A stretch of 64,000 bases of DNA from assembly GCA_016800925.1 (NCBI GenBank), contig JABCPU010000013.1:62001-126000 (forward strand), read 5' to 3'. Source of the DNA: Suillus spraguei (Eukaryota > Basidiomycota > Agaricomycetes > Boletales > Suillaceae). Both the position numbers and the translations under genes were made by a program. Position 1 is the first letter of the stretch. Every line of letters starts with the position of its first letter. Of this stretch, positions 7,835 to 55,087 are shown one piece after another. The notes below the pieces were generated by a model, which made no database searches, was not told the origin of the DNA, and was given only the letters and a program-made list of their open reading frames with translations.

Positions 7835-7919
7835 TAGCCAATGTGGTTACCACAACGGAATCAAAATCCGTTTCGATGAGACTACGCAGGTTCGAAACCT
7901 GCTGGATTGCAGGTTTTTT
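7835..7919 (+). ncRNA. Class II tRNA-like unit 1 (CAA in the anticodon position)
   Basis: An A-box-like TAGCCAATGTGG lies at 7835-7846. A perfect six-pair anticodon stem (AACGGA/TCCGTT) flanks the loop ATCAAAA with CAA at 7862-7864. A long variable region follows, then a five-pair T arm (GCAGG, TTCGAAA, CCTGC at 7886-7902) that gives a B-box-like GGTTCGAAACC. Six Ts at 7914-7919 could end Pol III transcription. I could not form a seven-pair acceptor stem, so a working tRNA-Leu or tRNA-Ser is doubtful. It resembles a tRNA-derived unit or pseudogene. Confidence 0.55.
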
Positions 7920-8430
7920 CCTGTTGGAACAGACTTTGACATTCATTCATGGATAGTTTCTTTAGGAGTTCACCGTAACTGGTTTTAACCAGGTGGTTGG
8001 AATCAAAATCTGTTTCTCTTGGACTGCAGGTTCGAAGCCTGCCGCTGACGAGATTTTTCTATCCGAATACACCTTGATACTCACTTATGGATTGGTTTCT
8101 CTAGAAGCTCACCGTAACTGGTCTTAACCAGGCGGTTGCTACAACAGAATCAAAATCTGTTTCTCCTGAATTGTGCAGTTTCGAAACCTGCCGACAATCC
8201 AATTTTTTTCTATCGGAACACACCTTGATATTCACTCATGAATGGTTTCTTTAGAATTTCACCGTAACTGGTCTTACCCAGGTGGTTGCTACAACAGAAT
8301 CAAAACTGTTTCTCATGGAATGCGCAGGTTCGAAACCTGCAAACGACAACGTTTTTTTTCTATCGAAAGACACCCTGACATTCACTCATGGATGGTTTCC
8401 TTAGAGGTCCATAACTGGTCTTTAGCCTCC
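7835..8430 (+). repeat. Tandem array of four tRNA-like units, 140-149 bp period
   Basis: The TTCGAA T-loop core recurs at 7891, 8031, 8180 and 8329. Each copy has the AATCAAAA anticodon-loop block and ends in a run of 5-8 Ts. Between copies lies a shared spacer (CTATCGGAACACACC, TTCACTCATGGATGG, TTTCTTTAGAA, CACCGTAACTGGTCTTA). Copy 2 lacks about nine bases before the anticodon stem; copy 4 lacks one base after the loop. A fifth spacer without a tRNA-like body ends near 8430. A SINE-like or tandemly duplicated tRNA pseudogene origin is likely. Confidence 0.75.
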
Positions 8431-46211: not shown

Positions 46212-49200
46212 ATGGCTTCTCCAGTGACAAAAGAAAGGTTCGGTCGCTTCCGAGTCCTTGTTATCGGAAGAGCGAATGCAGGAAAAACCACCATCCTCCA
46301 GAGAGTTTGCAACACCCGGAAGAAGCCAGAAATATATAACAGCTCCGGGAAAAAGGTGCGGAGCGATAATAGTAGCCTGGCAGTGACGACTGACACAAGA
46401 CCGATTCATCAGATCAGTACCACTGTTTTGATGCCGTCTAGAAAGGTGAGGTGTACTATTTGTATACCTTTGGTAGTCGACAATAAGACTTGACGCGTTC
46501 TCAGCGCGGAGTCCATGACATCGAAAACGAAATGGTGTTTCGACACAGCCCAGGATTTGTCTTCCATGACTCTTGCGGTTTTGAGGCAGGTGGGGAATCC
46601 GAATTCGAGAAGATGAAGACGTTTATCAGCGACCGATCTAAGGCAACCAGTCTAAAGGATCGAATCCATGTCATATGGTAATTTGTCAAGTTGACGAAAT
46701 GCGTTGACTCACTTCTTAAACATAGGTATTGCATCCCGATGGACGAAGCAAGCAGGTCTTTTACCGAAGGGGAAATCAAATTTTTCTCTCAGTGTGATAC
46801 CGGAAGCAGTAAGCTTTTGCATTCGACCATCGTTGATCGACTGATCCACAATTCTTAGTACCAGTGATAGTAGTATTTACCAAATTTGACGCCCTGTACG
46901 ACGTCGAGTATGCACAGCTCAAAAGGGACGGCGCATCGAGGGAGGACGCTAAAGAACTGGCCCCGAAGCGTGCTGAGGAGTCATTTGCCAACGGGCCACA
47001 ATTAAAGTTTCTATACGACCCCAAGGTCATTCCACACCCTCCAAAATGTCATGTATGCCTTCCTAGTAAGTGGATCGTTGGATTGTGATAGATAATGGTT
47101 GTTAATCTACACCCATTAGACATGAACACCGATGATGCCAATTGCGGGCCTCTCATCGACTGCACTGCTGGAGCTTTGGATGATGAAGCTCTTAAACAGT
47201 TGCTTATCTCATCTCAGCAGACCAACTTGGAGCTCTGCATGAAGTATGCGGTCGAAAGGCAACTGTCCAGAATTTTATTTGAAAGTTGCGAATATTAACA
47301 ACCGAAACTGTCCAGAACACTTGTGATATTTGTGGGCGCTGCCCATAGCATCTCATTCAACATACCTGAGGATCATGAGACGATGATAGCCTACTTGGGT
47401 GCCTGGTTTCCACATGTTTGGGTGAGATCATTGGAATATTAATATTTGAAAATTGCTCTCATTCATGATGGGCAATGCCTGCAGCCTGTGTGTTTATTGA
47501 CACTCTCTTGCATACTGATCTAACACATCGTCTATCCATTCACAGGGTGTGAGTGTATTGATCCTCTGAGCTCGAGTTATGCTGATTGAACCCATTGCTC
47601 GTTGTTCATAGTATGTAAGTGTGTCGATCCTCCTTCAAGCTCGAGTTATGCTGATCGAAGTTCAAACTTATTACTCACTGTTCACAGATTGTGAGGATAG
47701 TTATCCCTCTTCAAACTCGAGCTATGCTGATGGAAGTCATCACTCATTGTATCCAGGGTGTGAGTGTGTTGAATCACCTGCAAGCTTGAGCAATGCTGAT
47801 TGAAGTCCAAACTCATTACCTATTTTTCACAGCATGTGAGTGTGCTGAACCTCCTTCAAGCTCAAACCATGTTAATCAAAGTCATTGCCCACTGTTCATA
47901 GTATGTGAGTGTGTTGAACCTCCTTCGAGCTCAAGCCATGTTAATCGAAGTCATTGCCCACTGTTCGTAGCCTGTGAGTGTGTCGAACCTCCTTCGAGCT
48001 CAAGCCATGCTAATCGAAGTCATTGCCCACTGTTCGTAGGATGTGAGTGTGTCGAACCTCCTTCGAGCTCAAGCCATGCTAATCGGAGTCATTGTCCGTA
48101 GCTTGTGAGTGTGTTGAACCTCCTTCGAGCTCAAGCCATGCTAAGTCATTGCCCACTGTTCGTAGCATGTGAGTGTGTTGACCCACCTCTCAAGCCATGC
48201 TAATCGAAGTCATTGCCCACTGTTCGTAGCATGTGCGTGTGTTAATCTTTGGGCTCGAGCACGTTGATAGGAGTCATTGTCATTCCCAACTGTTCATAGC
48301 TTGTGAGTGTTGATCCTTCGAGCTCGGATGTTAATTGAAGTCATTGCCAATCTGTTGTCAGACGGTGAGTATGTTGATAGTGTCTCTCGGAGCTATGCTG
48401 ATTAAAGTCATTGCTCACTGGTCACAGACTGTGAGTGTATTGATCCTCGTTCAAGCTCGAGTCATACTGATCGAAGTCATTGCGCATTGTTCAGAGTGTG
48501 AGTGTGTTGACCCTCCTTTGAGCTCGAGCTATACTGATTGAAGACATTGCCAATCTCTTGTCAGAATGTGAGTGTGATCATTATTCGTCGACGTCGAGCC
48601 CTCAACTCACCAATGAGTCTGCCGGCATGTTGACAGGCCGTGAGTGTGTTCATCATACATCGAGCTCGAGCCTTGCTGATTGAACAATCTGCCAGATTGT
48701 GAGTGATCCAGTCTTGAGTCATATTCGCTAATGCAATCGTTGATATGTTAACAGCGAGTATGTTGATTCCTCATCGAGCCTGAGCTTTGCTGACTCAAGC
48801 CATTGTACGTTCATTGACAGAGAGTGAGTGTATGGATCATTAATCGAGTTCGAGCCTCCCTGACCAACTTGGATGAAATGGTTCATTCATCGGCAGGAAG
48901 TAAGTATATTCATCCTTAAGCCATACTGAACGAAGAAATTACTGATCCATCGACAGGTCGTGAGTATGCATCCTCTGTCAACCTCCCACCTTACTCACTG
49001 AAGCAATTACTGGTTTATTGCTAGGATGTGAGTGTGTTCACTATCTGTCGACCTCGCGCCATGTTCACCAACATGATTATTGAGTCATTGATAGGTTGTA
49101 AGTGGCGTAATCCACCATTGACCCTGAGCCATGTTGACTGACGACATCACCGATCCGTTTACAGCAAGTGAGAGCACTGATCCATCAAGCTCGACCATTG

Positions 49201-50119
49201 CTGACTGACGAATTTGCCAATCGCTATTGACAGGTTGTGAGTATTCATCCATCGTCGAGCTCTAGCCTTACTGATTGACGATGCTACCGATCTGTCGACA
49301 GTCAGTGAGTCTCTTCATCCTCATTTCAGCTTAAGCCTTACTCACTAAGACATTACTCATTTCACCAGGAAGTCAGTGTGTTGTTCTCTTTCAAGCTCGA
49401 TATTTGCTCACCACTGAAGTGGTGCATCCCGTAACAGACTGTAAGTGTTTGATGCTCAAGCGATTGCTCACCGACGACGTTGCGCCGATCTATTCATAGG
49501 ATGTGAGTTTCTTTATCGACTGTGAACTTTGAGCCATCGTGTTGACCAAAGATGTTACTCGTTGATAGCGTGTGAGTGCATTGAACAGCAAATGTGGTTG
49601 ATTTTCAACGTTCCATCATGACTTCAGCTTTACGATGAGCAACGTACAGAAATGCTGTCTAGGATACTCTCTGAGGTATGTTCAATTTGCCGCACGCTGT
49701 ATACACAATTCCATGTTGAAAATATGACAGGTCTCTGCCAGTGCATCACCATTGGAGCGAATTCTTCAGCTCAGTTGTGGTGAATTTTCAGGCCACGTTG
49801 CAATGAATTTACTTATATCAATCATTTAGCTGTTGTCATTATTTTGGAAAGCTCTTTCTATCTTTTCGACCAGCGACGCAATCTTCGGCTCCAGCTGAGG
49901 TCTTCCCGCAGCCCTTTGGATACCGCGCTAGAACGGTACATGGCGTCCCCGCATGCAGCTGCTGTCAGGGAAGCTGTGAGCACTGTCGTCCACACATATC
50001 AAGGGAATTCCTCTACTTGGAAAGCGATGCTAGGTCTTGAAAGTTCAGGGAGCAAGTTGATCAAAACAATTCTTGAAATTGCTTTACAGCATCGCTTGCG
50101 TAGGTTTCAACTCTCGTGA
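46212..50119 (+). CDS. P-loop GTPase containing a 32-microexon array
   Basis: The N-terminal G domain shows FRVLVIGRANAGKTTILQRV (G1), FVFHDSCGFEAGGESEFEKM (G3) and VIVVFTKFDALYDVEYAQL (G4). Leading exons are 46212-46355, 46413-46445, 46505-46677, 46726-46808, 46859-47065, 47120-47258 and 47316-47421, followed by 32 exons of 3 nt, then 49628-49675, 49731-49779 and 49830-50119. The total is 1,368 nt, or 455 residues plus stop, in 42 exons. The intron 47259-47315 starts with GC and has a TATTAAC branch-like site; without it a TAA would end the frame. The C-terminal part (SCAVVIILESSFYLFDQRRN) holds a short hydrophobic segment. It is the divergent neighbour of the GTPase at 42065-45130, with a different C-terminal architecture. 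Biological role unknown; the family is a mushroom-expanded GTPase group. Confidence 0.82.
47422..49627 (+). other. Array of 33 short introns separated by 32 three-nucleotide exons
   Basis: Starts and codons: 47485 cct, 47546 ggt, 47612 tat, 47688 att, 47757 ggt, 47833 cat, 47902 tat, 47971 cct, 48040 gat, 48102 ctt, 48166 cat, 48230 cat, 48300 ctt, 48362 acg, 48428 act, 48495 agt, 48565 aat, 48637 gcc, 48696 att, 48755 cga, 48821 aga, 48897 gaa, 48957 gtc, 49025 gat, 49095 gtt, 49165 caa, 49234 gtt, 49302 tca, 49369 gaa, 49438 act, 49500 gat, 49569 cgt. Every codon follows AG and precedes GT; 22 donors are GTGAGT, 4 are GTAAGT, and the others GTGTGT, GTGAGG, GTGCGT, GTATGT, GTGAGA and GTCAGT. 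Introns are 56-73 nt. Most have a CTAAT/CTGAT-like branch site 25-40 nt before the AG. The codons give PGYIGHYPDLHHLTTS then NAIRREVDVQVSETDR, joining HVW on the left to LYDEQRTEMLSRILSE on the right in phase 0. Confidence 0.88.
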
Positions 50120-50319
50120 TTGTAGCAATCCCGCTGATCTGTTTGTCTTCAGCCAGAACTTAATACATTACCACGTCACGATGTTTGGAGTTGAGCTCAA
50201 GTATTTTGGTGGTGAATGTCGGATTCTTGAATGGTCCGCTGAGATGGTTCACGGGTGTGGCAATGTATCGAATGGTGTACGGATCAGGATATTTAAGCAT
50301 CGACGACGTGTCTAATAAC

Positions 50320-52365: not shown

Positions 52366-55087
52366 TCTAATCCAACCCATTCACAATAATCATTGCAGAC
52401 GTGCTGCGCCTCGAACATGGTGACCGCGACTTCTATGTTCCCTTCACCAAAGATATCCTGTCCATCGCTGACCGAGCTGATTATAATAGGATGTCAACAA
52501 CCACTGGAGCCGGAGATCGAGAGCATACGCACGGGTCTGTCAATATTTGAGGGTCAGTCAGTAGTGACGTGCTTCCTGAGGGTCAACGAGTTTTGTGAGC
52601 ACAGGATTGTCATTAAGGAGAGATGCATACCTTGGTAGTCAGATATGAATGCTAAACCACCAGTCTTCACATATTGAACATGTTGAGTGAATGCGAAGAA
52701 TACCGCTAAATCATAGCCATAGTCAAGTTCGTCGAGCAAAGGATCAGCGTCCATGTTATGAATGAATTTGACAAATGCATCGTCACCGCCGTCAATGAGT
52801 TCTTTGAGCAGATAAGCTGCTCGAATAGGGCAGGGCTTCAACCCTGGCATGATGCTTTTTGAGCCCAGTTTGCCAGAGGGAGCCGCTATGACTGCTTGAC
52901 CTTGCACAAATGCTAATGCAAGGCCAGCTTGCACAAATCGTACTCGTGGTACTGGGAACGGAGGAGGACAATAGGTAGCACGTCGATGGTCGATGAAGTC
53001 GTATGTAAGTTGTAAAAGGGAGCTTGCCCAGTATAGCACGTTGGCTTCTCGAAAAAGCTTTGGCAATTCATCTACGACGGGAAACCTGCCGATCTTGAAG
53101 GCTTCAGTCGACCCGCCAGCCTGTGAAAAAACTCTGTGAAAGGGCCGTTTGACCACGATTTCGTCACGCGGAACTGAACCAAGTCCGGAAACTGGAGGAG
53201 GAGTGAGGGTGAGCCATCCTGGATGGGCCGTCTTGAACCCACCCATCCCAATAGTGCTGTCATGGGATATGTCAACCATCAACTGGCCAACATAAGACTC
53301 GGCAGTGTCGAGCGTAAATGAGCGATAATCCTTGTTTCGTAAGATCTCCATTAGAAGGCGATTAGGGATGGGGTAGAAATGTATAGTTTCACTCTGTCTT
53401 TCAAATACTAGGTACAAACACCATCCATTAGTTCATGGAAGGATATAAGCGTAGAACTCTTACCTTTCTTCACATTGAGATTTGCGGTACCACCTGACTT
53501 AAGGGCCGCTTTCAGGTCATTACGGTCGGGCGAGTGAAATATAACTGCTGGCGCAATCTTTTTGAGTGGCGGAGATGGAGGTAAAGCATTATGACTGCTC
53601 TCGGTTCGTACATGAGTCCGCTTAGTAGACAATATAGTCTGAGCTGCAGACACATCGCCCTCGAAGGCTGCACTAGTCTAGAACACATGGTTAGTTTCTC
53701 TCAGAGCTCTGAAACAGAGTGGGATTTCACCTGCTGAGCTTGTGTATAGTCATATTGCAGGGGTTCATCGTCCCCGGTTGCATCACTCTGCATGGTATGG
53801 CTCAAGGTATGACTGGTGGTATGACTGGCGGTATGACTGGCGGTATGACTGGCGGTATGACTGGCGGTATGACTGGTGGTACGACTGGTGGTACAATCGG
53901 TGGTACGACCAGTAGTATGGTTGGTGGTACGGCTGGTAGCAGCCTAAAATACATCTGATTAAGCAACCGGTTGACACGCAGAATAAAACATGATACTTTA
54001 CCTCTTCTGCAACTCGTTCCATCCAGTCTTCATATTCTAGCCAGCGTGTTTGAGGTGCGACTACCATTAATGAGAACTGTTTTGACTTGAAGATCACTGG
54101 CTTCGAAGCTTTGCGACTTGCTTGTAAGCATTGATCGAGGAAGTAAGGTTGTCCGGCCTGGTGAGTGGAGAGATCTACCCATTTTCCATCCCGCACAACA
54201 AACTCGTTGTCATACCAGACAAAATCAGAACAAAAAGTCCGGATCTTTGGCAGGATGGTATCAAGTGCGATTGTTATAAGTCCAGGTGCATCGATACGAG
54301 CATCGATATCCTTTAGGCCCTCACAAATGTTCTAGAGATATATCATTAATAACCAATCCACAATTCTGAAGATAAAACACATACCCCAATAGTAATGCCA
54401 CGACTACCCTTTCGCCTGACCCCGCCCTCATGAACAGCCGAGATTTCCAGAGAAATGGTCTGTGCTGCTGGTATGGCATACGAAAGCTTAGCCCAGCGCT
54501 CGCATTCGGACCCATAATGAGCATGGTGTGAAGAGTAACCAGAGGCCCGTGAGCCCATAGCCTGTGAATTAGAACTGGAGGGTTGGATCGGACGCTGCCA
54601 TGTTGATGGCACATTGACATTGGGACCCATGGTGGAGCGTGCCATGGCCACCACAGGTGGTGGGTTAAGTGTTGCTGAATAACTGTAAGACTCGTATGAT
54701 GTAAAATGCTATCGGTCTACTTACACTTTCGTTGCGCAGCATTGACAGATTGTCGGATAACATGTGGATCTGGCAATTCACGGTTTGACATCATGTCTCG
54801 TCCTGCAAGTGACAGCCAAGCAGACTTATCAGTGCCAGACTTCAAGTATAAGCGGTAGAAAACTCACTGTTAGTTGTGGGTCTCACGGACGTAGCTAGCT
54901 TCCCTCGGTACCGTTCATGACAAGAACTGCAGACATTACGACCTGGTTTCCCAGGGTCTATAGTGCCCACATAAAAACAGGGGTCACCCCTGAAAATCAT
55001 GGCACCGCAGGCAGGACGTTCGCATACTTGATCCTTCTTCGCAAATGCATCTTCGGTGAACTGAGATACTAATTCAAACCCAGACAT
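52320..55087 (-). CDS. Alpha-type protein kinase with N-terminal Cys-rich region
   Basis: Nine exons: 55087-54868, 54802-54725, 54674-54385, 54331-54002, 53943-53731, 53677-53464, 53407-52631, 52575-52533 and 52476-52320. All junctions are in frame, giving 773 residues. The N-terminus has paired cysteines (QVCERPACGAMIFRG, NVCSSCHERY), probably zinc-binding. A middle linker holds a Thr/Ser/His repeat. The C-terminal kinase domain shows GMGGFKTAHPGW, DEIVVKRPF (likely the ATP-binding Lys), GLAFISDYQGSTSLLTDPQI and the alpha-kinase zinc signature HVCNDYC near the end. Alpha-kinases are atypical Ser/Thr kinases related to MHCK/eEF2 kinase and are greatly expanded in mushrooms. The gene appears intact, which is notable for its position inside a long inverted repeat. 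Substrate unknown. Confidence 0.85.
53808..53905 (+). repeat. 12-bp tandem repeat inside an alpha-kinase exon
   Basis: Repeats of TATGACTGGCGG and close variants, about eight copies. On the minus strand they encode a Ser-His-Thr-Ala/Thr pattern (SHTASHTASHTAS) in the linker between the Cys-rich region and the kinase domain. The period is a multiple of three, so copy-number change keeps the frame. Confidence 0.9.

Follow-up and report, generated by a model that had tools for sequence, protein, structure and literature searches.

Probable one-codon exons in series within a GTPase gene family of Suillus spraguei

How is a gene read when its middle part consists of introns held exactly one codon apart? 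This question is raised by a GTPase gene of the bolete Suillus spraguei, located in the 64,000-nucleotide (nt) stretch analyzed here (contig JABCPU010000013.1, positions 62,001 to 126,000; hereafter the window, in whose own coordinates all positions are given). We consider it very probable that the gene is a member of a Suillus GTPase family in which a hypervariable peptide, lying after the GTPase domain and before the C-terminal region, is put together from one-codon exons. Splicing one codon at a time is well supported at the level of the family, as judged from sequence comparison.

A continuous chain of introns one codon apart in the window gene

A chain search that presupposed GT donors and AG acceptors recovered 33 GT-AG introns of 56-73 nt (first donor 47422, last acceptor 49627), with neighboring introns exactly 3 nt apart throughout; fixed spacings of 1, 2 or 4-9 nt gave no chain in the array. 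The 32 one-codon exons defined in this way read PGYIGHYPDLHHLTTSNAIRREVDVQVSETDR, contain no stop and join AWFPHVW to LYDEQRTEM in frame, and since the exons upstream of the array total 885 nt in the gene model, the array lies in phase 0. The chain, its phase and the in-frame junction had been described in an earlier note made from the letters of the window and were confirmed here, while two of its figures required correction: GTGAGT is the donor of 22 of the 33 introns, not of 32, and the gene comprises 452 residues and a stop rather than 456 codons. A CTRAY branch-point-like motif was present in 19 of the 33 introns, compared with a mean of 5.9 and a maximum of 14 in shuffled segments. Zero-nucleotide AG/GT ratchet points, the mark of recursive splicing, were not found in the array, its sites being of the form AG-NNN-GT, with 3 nt in between. 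The gene and the parts of the array are as follows.

46212-50163, + strand: window gene, 43 exons, 452 residues and stop (homologue-guided exon model)
46212-46355, 46413-46445, 46505-46677, 46726-46808, 46859-47065, 47120-47258, 47316-47421, + strand: seven ordinary 5′ exons (gene model and translation)
47259-47315, + strand: sixth intron, with a GC donor (GCAACT..CAG; gene model)
47422..49627, + strand: array of 33 GT-AG introns (chain search)
47485..49571, + strand: 32 one-codon exons of 3 nt each (chain search)
47485, 47546, 47612, 47688, 47757, 47833, 47902, 47971, 48040, 48102, 48166, 48230, 48300, 48362, 48428, 48495, + strand: starts of one-codon exons 1-16
48565, 48637, 48696, 48755, 48821, 48897, 48957, 49025, 49095, 49165, 49234, 49302, 49369, 49438, 49500, 49569, + strand: starts of one-codon exons 17-32
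47569..48551, + strand: more alike part of the array, a 69-nt repeat in 14.4 copies with 73% matches (Tandem Repeats Finder)
48821..49571, + strand: last 12 one-codon exons (REVDVQVSETDR), the place that holds the tail motif [DHN]ELG[VIL] in 9 of 14 arrays
49628..49675, + strand: tail exon of 16 residues, LYDEQRTEMLSRILSE, directly after the array; paralogues mostly read xxxxxxxDMxSRLLSV or xxxxxxxEMxSRLLSV
49731-49779, 49830-50099, 50153-50163, + strand: three 3′ exons, encoding the C-terminal region that ends ..IALQHRLPRT before the stop (translation)

The same block might instead be a minisatellite within one 2,206-nt intron that is removed whole, its inner splice sites being relics of the tandem duplication of an intron together with a flanking codon. 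This is the arrangement that the 69-nt repeat and a window reading frame that stays open also without the microexons would suggest. Mean pairwise identity among the 33 introns is 59%, however, and nonetheless no gap interrupts the 33 introns and the 32 exons of exactly 3 nt; together with the results from the family given below, this makes removal as a single intron very unlikely.

The seven 5′ exons encode a GTPase domain that ends ..LGAWFPHVW. Pfam placed an MMR_HSR1 match in the N-terminal part (E 1.3e-4; 22.5 bits against a cut-off of 21.9), and all six Pfam families found at E up to 0.1 were of GTPase type; NACHT and ankyrin domains were not found by Pfam in a query lacking the C-terminal region after the tail exon. 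An earlier gene model, which read through the first intron, served as query in the exon-1, Pfam and protein-database searches, and for the latter two it also lacked five residues before exon 7. Among solved structures there was one weak match, over 26 profile positions, to the GTPase Der. The protein database returned 1405 matches to the window protein, and among the best 120 listed every named one was from Suillus, a genus in which the family is large. Relatives retrieved in this way carry P-numbers: the top match, P0001 (S. spraguei), was 92% identical over 78% of the query, P0044 is another S. spraguei match, and the ends of P0034, P0121 and P0122 (..HRLPRP or NRLPRP) resemble the C-terminal end of the window protein.

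Recurrence and codon diversity at 15 family loci

The 86.2-Mb genome was searched for two introns in succession, both with a 3-nt exon and then a GTRAGT donor behind them. This pattern matched 338 times (with places listed for about the first 100) and its reversed form 0 times, more than chance would give. Exon 1 of the window gene had 17 genome matches, the window included, and the conserved end of the C392 array had 16 long ones, with further weak matches on C747, C1091, C702, C773, C423 and C1113; here C-numbers denote contigs of the S. spraguei genome, and a or b marks one of two arrays on a contig. Arrays of 15 to 88 microexons each were annotated at 15 family loci: the window, C158 (two), C392, C333, C751, C922, C432 (two), C888 (two), C669, C453, C1100 and C522. 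Thirteen of the 15 chains were anchored on the WFPH exon and on an exon reading xxxxxxx(D/E)MxSRLLSV or alike; those of C453 and C888b begin at the first donor of the stretch taken, and the C453 chain omits the first microexon. No array or tail motif was found on C814, and no anchor exon on C567. C1120, a C158 array near 120.4 kb and other weak matches lie outside the annotation, as do the regions downstream of the exon-1 matches on C360 and C280.

Counts were pooled over 14 arrays, C888a being left out as a 99.5% copy of C432a. Of 491 microexons, 477 measured 3 nt, 12 measured 2 nt, and one each 5 and 9 nt. Donors were GT at 504 of 505 introns and acceptors AG at 503 of 505, by a chain method that favors GT and AG, and CTRAY occurred in 399 of the 505, so that the array introns bear the features of U2-type spliceosomal introns (GT donor, branch point and AG acceptor). 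None of the 477 codons was a stop, compared with 9.6 expected and a minimum of 2 in 2000 shuffles of bases within codon position and array. The tail motif was present in 9 of the 14 arrays, in six of them as DELG spelled over four codon exons, and absent from the window, C432a, C432b, C888b and C522. Both the absence of stops and the retention of the tail motif argue against an array that is discarded as intron. Eleven of the 12 microexons of 2 nt fell in C333, C922, C1100 and C522, arrays of nearly identical units, and the remaining one in C669. Pseudogene status was considered for the 2-nt exons and set aside in view of this distribution and of the C922 and C1100 comparison described below.

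In C888b, C432b, C158a and C392, successive 66-nt introns are near-identical while the intervening codons differ, in C888b at all three positions (GAA, TTG and AGA). In 11 of the 12 arrays tested, no intron column was more variable than codon positions 1 and 2, the exception being C432a; units similar enough for this test were too scarce in the window and C669. Over the 14 arrays, within-array unit pairs carried different codons in 733 of 926 cases when the following intron was identical and in 645 of 945 when the preceding intron was. Codon-differing pairs were nonsynonymous rather than synonymous by 3200 to 3 in C392 and by 87 to 0 in C888b, related pairs being counted. Array lengths differ as well. 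The upstream flanks of C432b and C888b are 96.8% identical over 1,392 nt, yet the arrays hold 31 and 15 codons, and C392 and C333, with 88 and 27 codons, are 95-97% identical over their longest aligned stretches, parts of the arrays included; each pair may represent alleles or duplicates. This variation of codons rather than introns in young arrays is a further point against a single-intron minisatellite.

The codon differences could also have arisen through a mutational process directed at these two or three bases rather than through selection on the peptide: a hotspot, diversification from a template, or a mobile element resembling an intron that inserted repeatedly between codons. Wholly different codons beside near-identical introns, as in C888b, would be expected of such a process, and C922 and C1100 would exemplify it if their differences, in 5 of 47 codons against 6 of 2,815 intron bases, involve no consensus error. 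Repeated four-codon words showed no significant excess in five arrays (p 0.1 in C392; 1.0 in C158a, C922, C432 and C453), which is compatible with this explanation; block duplication as the chief mode of array growth was rejected on the same result. In C392, however, an identical 8-nt insertion marks 15 introns, and all 14 CGT codons come directly after one of these; all seven introns ending TTTGCAG stand before CTT, of which there are nine. These codons were therefore copied together with the sequence just upstream of them. A very fast hotspot is also hard to square with C432a and C888a, whose 46 codons are all the same despite eight intron differences, and the lack of stop codons agrees with selection acting on the protein. 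We accordingly regard a purely mutational origin as unlikely, though as the least unlikely of the three rival explanations considered.

The truncated arrays on C326 and C339 provide a comparison, as GTPase and tail motifs were not found in the stretches of these contigs examined. They contain GC and AT donors, 1-nt exons and a TGA codon, with defects in 9 of 50 units, as opposed to 8 of 386 in genic arrays (p 2e-5) or 16 of 491 when arrays added later are included (p 1.6e-4); C326 alone gives p 0.004. The two, also labeled L043 (C326) and L044 (C339), are truncated copies of a C432-type array.

The peptide at the array position in related proteins

Several relatives on contigs of 0.96-2.6 kb (P0034, P0121, P0122, P0136, P0137, P0126 and P0085) read unbroken across the intron positions of S. 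spraguei, and for this reason they look like spliced mRNA, that is, complementary DNA (cDNA). In four of them a contiguous peptide of 24-37 residues stands between WFPH(I/V)(W/G) and an exon of the xxxEMxSRLLSV type, as follows.

P0034: ARYYYDDVRDLDVLDLLRDLDVLLLLKREK
P0121: ADGFRRDDLRFVSSIRFLSDDRFSLSRDLRFDFKREE
P0122: VWDHHRRGIIDRDELGIQFTKRDD
P0136: VYEEEYRRDRWWWRRRDELGISGTED

The DELG motif is present in two mRNA-like relatives, and P0137 reads QELDVDDRKMER where C158a spells HELGVDRRKIDN over twelve separate exons. A peptide at this place is difficult to reconcile with an array removed as one intron. For the gene family, these sequences support the proposal of the earlier note that the codons are spliced in one at a time, together with its expectation that homologues would hold a contiguous segment between HVW and LYDEQR; the outcome that the note had named as refuting, homologues lacking residues there, was nevertheless seen in genome-predicted models taken up below.

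Putative intermediate forms were also found. P0016 has 23 such residues, followed by VSFF and its end, resembling a retained array intron that starts GTGAGTTTYTTY, and P0130 carries a single 22-residue piece between D and Y, like a whole translated 66-nt array intron; both are what partly spliced transcripts would give. A motif written after examples had been seen detected 22-residue pieces like translated array introns in 19 of the 166 proteins retrieved and in 0 of the 166 when reversed; 18 of the 19 are named records, which come from 13 Suillus species. The public gene models inspected miss the array: they end within its first intron or earlier, leave it out, or translate its introns. In P0149, P0150, P0151, P0154, P0161 and P0164, from other Suillus, 22-residue repeats stand mostly one or two residues apart, likely an annotation artefact in the genus.

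Such pieces raise the alternative that the array is coding and not intronic, consisting of 23-residue repeats in tandem, X-VSVSILLRARAMLIQVLAHSSQ, each with a single hypervariable residue. Besides the 19 proteins, this would accommodate the commonest intron of young arrays, which is 66 nt long and open in frame, and the 58 of 89 C392 introns that are multiples of 3 without a stop. Only 2 of the 33 window introns are both a multiple of 3 and open, however, and lengths of 65, 67 and 74 nt disrupt the frame within C392 itself. Moreover, the peptides of the mRNA-like P0034, P0121, P0122 and P0136 contain no 22-residue pieces, and the exactly one piece in P0130 fits intron retention. Translation of the introns as coding repeats is thus extremely unlikely.

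Several observations weigh against the assembly of a variable peptide from one-codon exons. The evidence for splicing comes from family relatives, as no transcript of the window locus was seen, and the cDNA status of the short-contig proteins was inferred from unbroken frames. The mRNA-like P0127 has just eight residues at the array place, AIEFQREN. In four genome-based models from other Suillus species the array is skipped whole or nearly so, P0024 holding 0 residues there and P0020, P0029 and P0041 one to four, as a single intron would also predict. Similarity of the peptide tail to S. spraguei was modest in a shuffle test (p 0.005 for P0137, 0.03 for P0122 and 0.07 for P0136), with none for P0034, P0121 and P0127; pooled tail matches numbered 26, compared with a shuffle mean of 20.7 and a top shuffle of 27. 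The window array tail lacks [DHN]ELG[VIL], and the 12 microexons of 2 nt and the one of 5 nt depart from codon size. As to diversity, the C432a and C888a pair described above differs in 8 intron bases and 0 of 46 codons, and C922 and C1100 differ in 6 of 2,815 intron bases and, among the 42 codons with a length of 3 nt at both loci, in 0, so that neither pair shows a clean codon change. Five more of their 47 codons differ because one locus has a 2-nt form, C1100 in four cases and C922 in the fifth, which we read as consensus error at the only variable sites, where reads of alike units get confused; array sequences may therefore contain mistakes. Lastly, C326 and C339 are 86% identical and share ancestry, so that this control is not independent.

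A proposed mechanism and its known counterparts

If the one-codon exons are spliced as proposed, each intron would be recognized singly, by intron definition, and the introns taken out one after another, so that the upstream exon grows by one codon each time. Units of codon and intron may be gained, lost and exchanged through unequal crossing-over and short gene conversion; such exchange would maintain similarity among the introns, whereas selection favoring different amino acids would hold the codons apart. By analogy with the variable repeats of fungal nonself-recognition genes, the variable peptide could be a recognition surface. The frame would survive the loss of any microexon, all of them being in phase 0, and alternative splicing could therefore widen the repertoire. 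More tentatively, Suillus may have a dedicated system in which the introns act as recombination padding between single codons, allowing receptor-like GTPases to rewrite a recognition peptide of 15-88 residues by conversion in the genome and possibly by codon skipping in RNA; we put this forward as a conjecture somewhat more likely to be wrong than right.

Schistosoma micro-exon genes likewise yield variable proteins from series of very short in-phase exons, but these exons are longer than one codon and the proteins are secreted ones of an animal. Searches of the open-access literature turned up no description of codon-exon arrays in Suillus. The earlier note knew of no example of such density, a statement that now has to be qualified: according to passages in PMC4986451 and PMC10197012, which cite Iotti et al. 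2012, NACHT-ANK genes of Tuber melanosporum contain multiple codon-sized (3-bp) microexons. As far as those passages describe it, the Tuber case shares with ours an expanded paralogous family, an ectomycorrhizal fungus, multiple 3-bp microexons, a nucleotide-binding domain and a proposed role in sensor diversification, and serial exons of exactly 3 nt make up 477 of 491 in the 14 Suillus arrays. Tuber, however, is an ascomycete truffle with NACHT and ankyrin domains, whereas Suillus is a basidiomycete bolete with an MMR_HSR1-type GTPase and 15 to 88 microexons per array. The diversifying step reported for Tuber in the same passages is alternative splicing, while in Suillus the codons are hypervariable in the DNA itself.

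In Podospora anserina, the HNWD genes (WD40 repeats of het-d/e/r) function in nonself recognition, and their units are homogenized by exchange within and between loci, with four codon positions per unit under diversifying selection, as outlined in part of PMC2873952. Suillus units are similarly homogenized with variation at specific codons, as seen in 11 of the 12 arrays tested. What is homogenized in HNWD genes is protein, the WD40 unit, whereas in Suillus it is the intron; of each Suillus unit, the protein would receive just the variable codon. Introner-like elements of fungi, in the account drawn from PMC4457414, are many near-identical spliceosomal introns within one genome; the near-identical Suillus introns examined differ in sitting one codon apart in arrays of one gene family or its fragments. 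The Suillus case combines Tuber-type microexons with HNWD-type homogenization in a different phylum and a different gene family, its arrays reaching 88 codons.

If true, the spliceosome would be joining as many as 88 consecutive 3-nt exons in a single gene, which would probe the limits of exon recognition and splicing fidelity. The codon diversity amid homogenized introns permits noncoding and coding sequence to be compared at one-codon resolution, and it suggests a route by which fungi could hold a very large repertoire of variable peptides. In mycorrhizal Suillus, "GTPase P-loop" genes are named in part of PMC5065116 among those expressed in particular pine pairings, a gene class given by name that may not be the array family.

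Elsewhere in the window, positions 7843-8405 hold a 150-nt tandem repeat in 3.8 copies with a stretch that by eye resembles a tRNA T-arm, GCGCAGGTTCGAAACCTGCCGC; no tRNA gene was called in the window. A piece like the end of this repeat was noticed, also by eye, upstream of the truncated array L043 on C326. At 53806-53937 lies a 12-nt tandem repeat, GGTATGACTGGT, in 11 copies.

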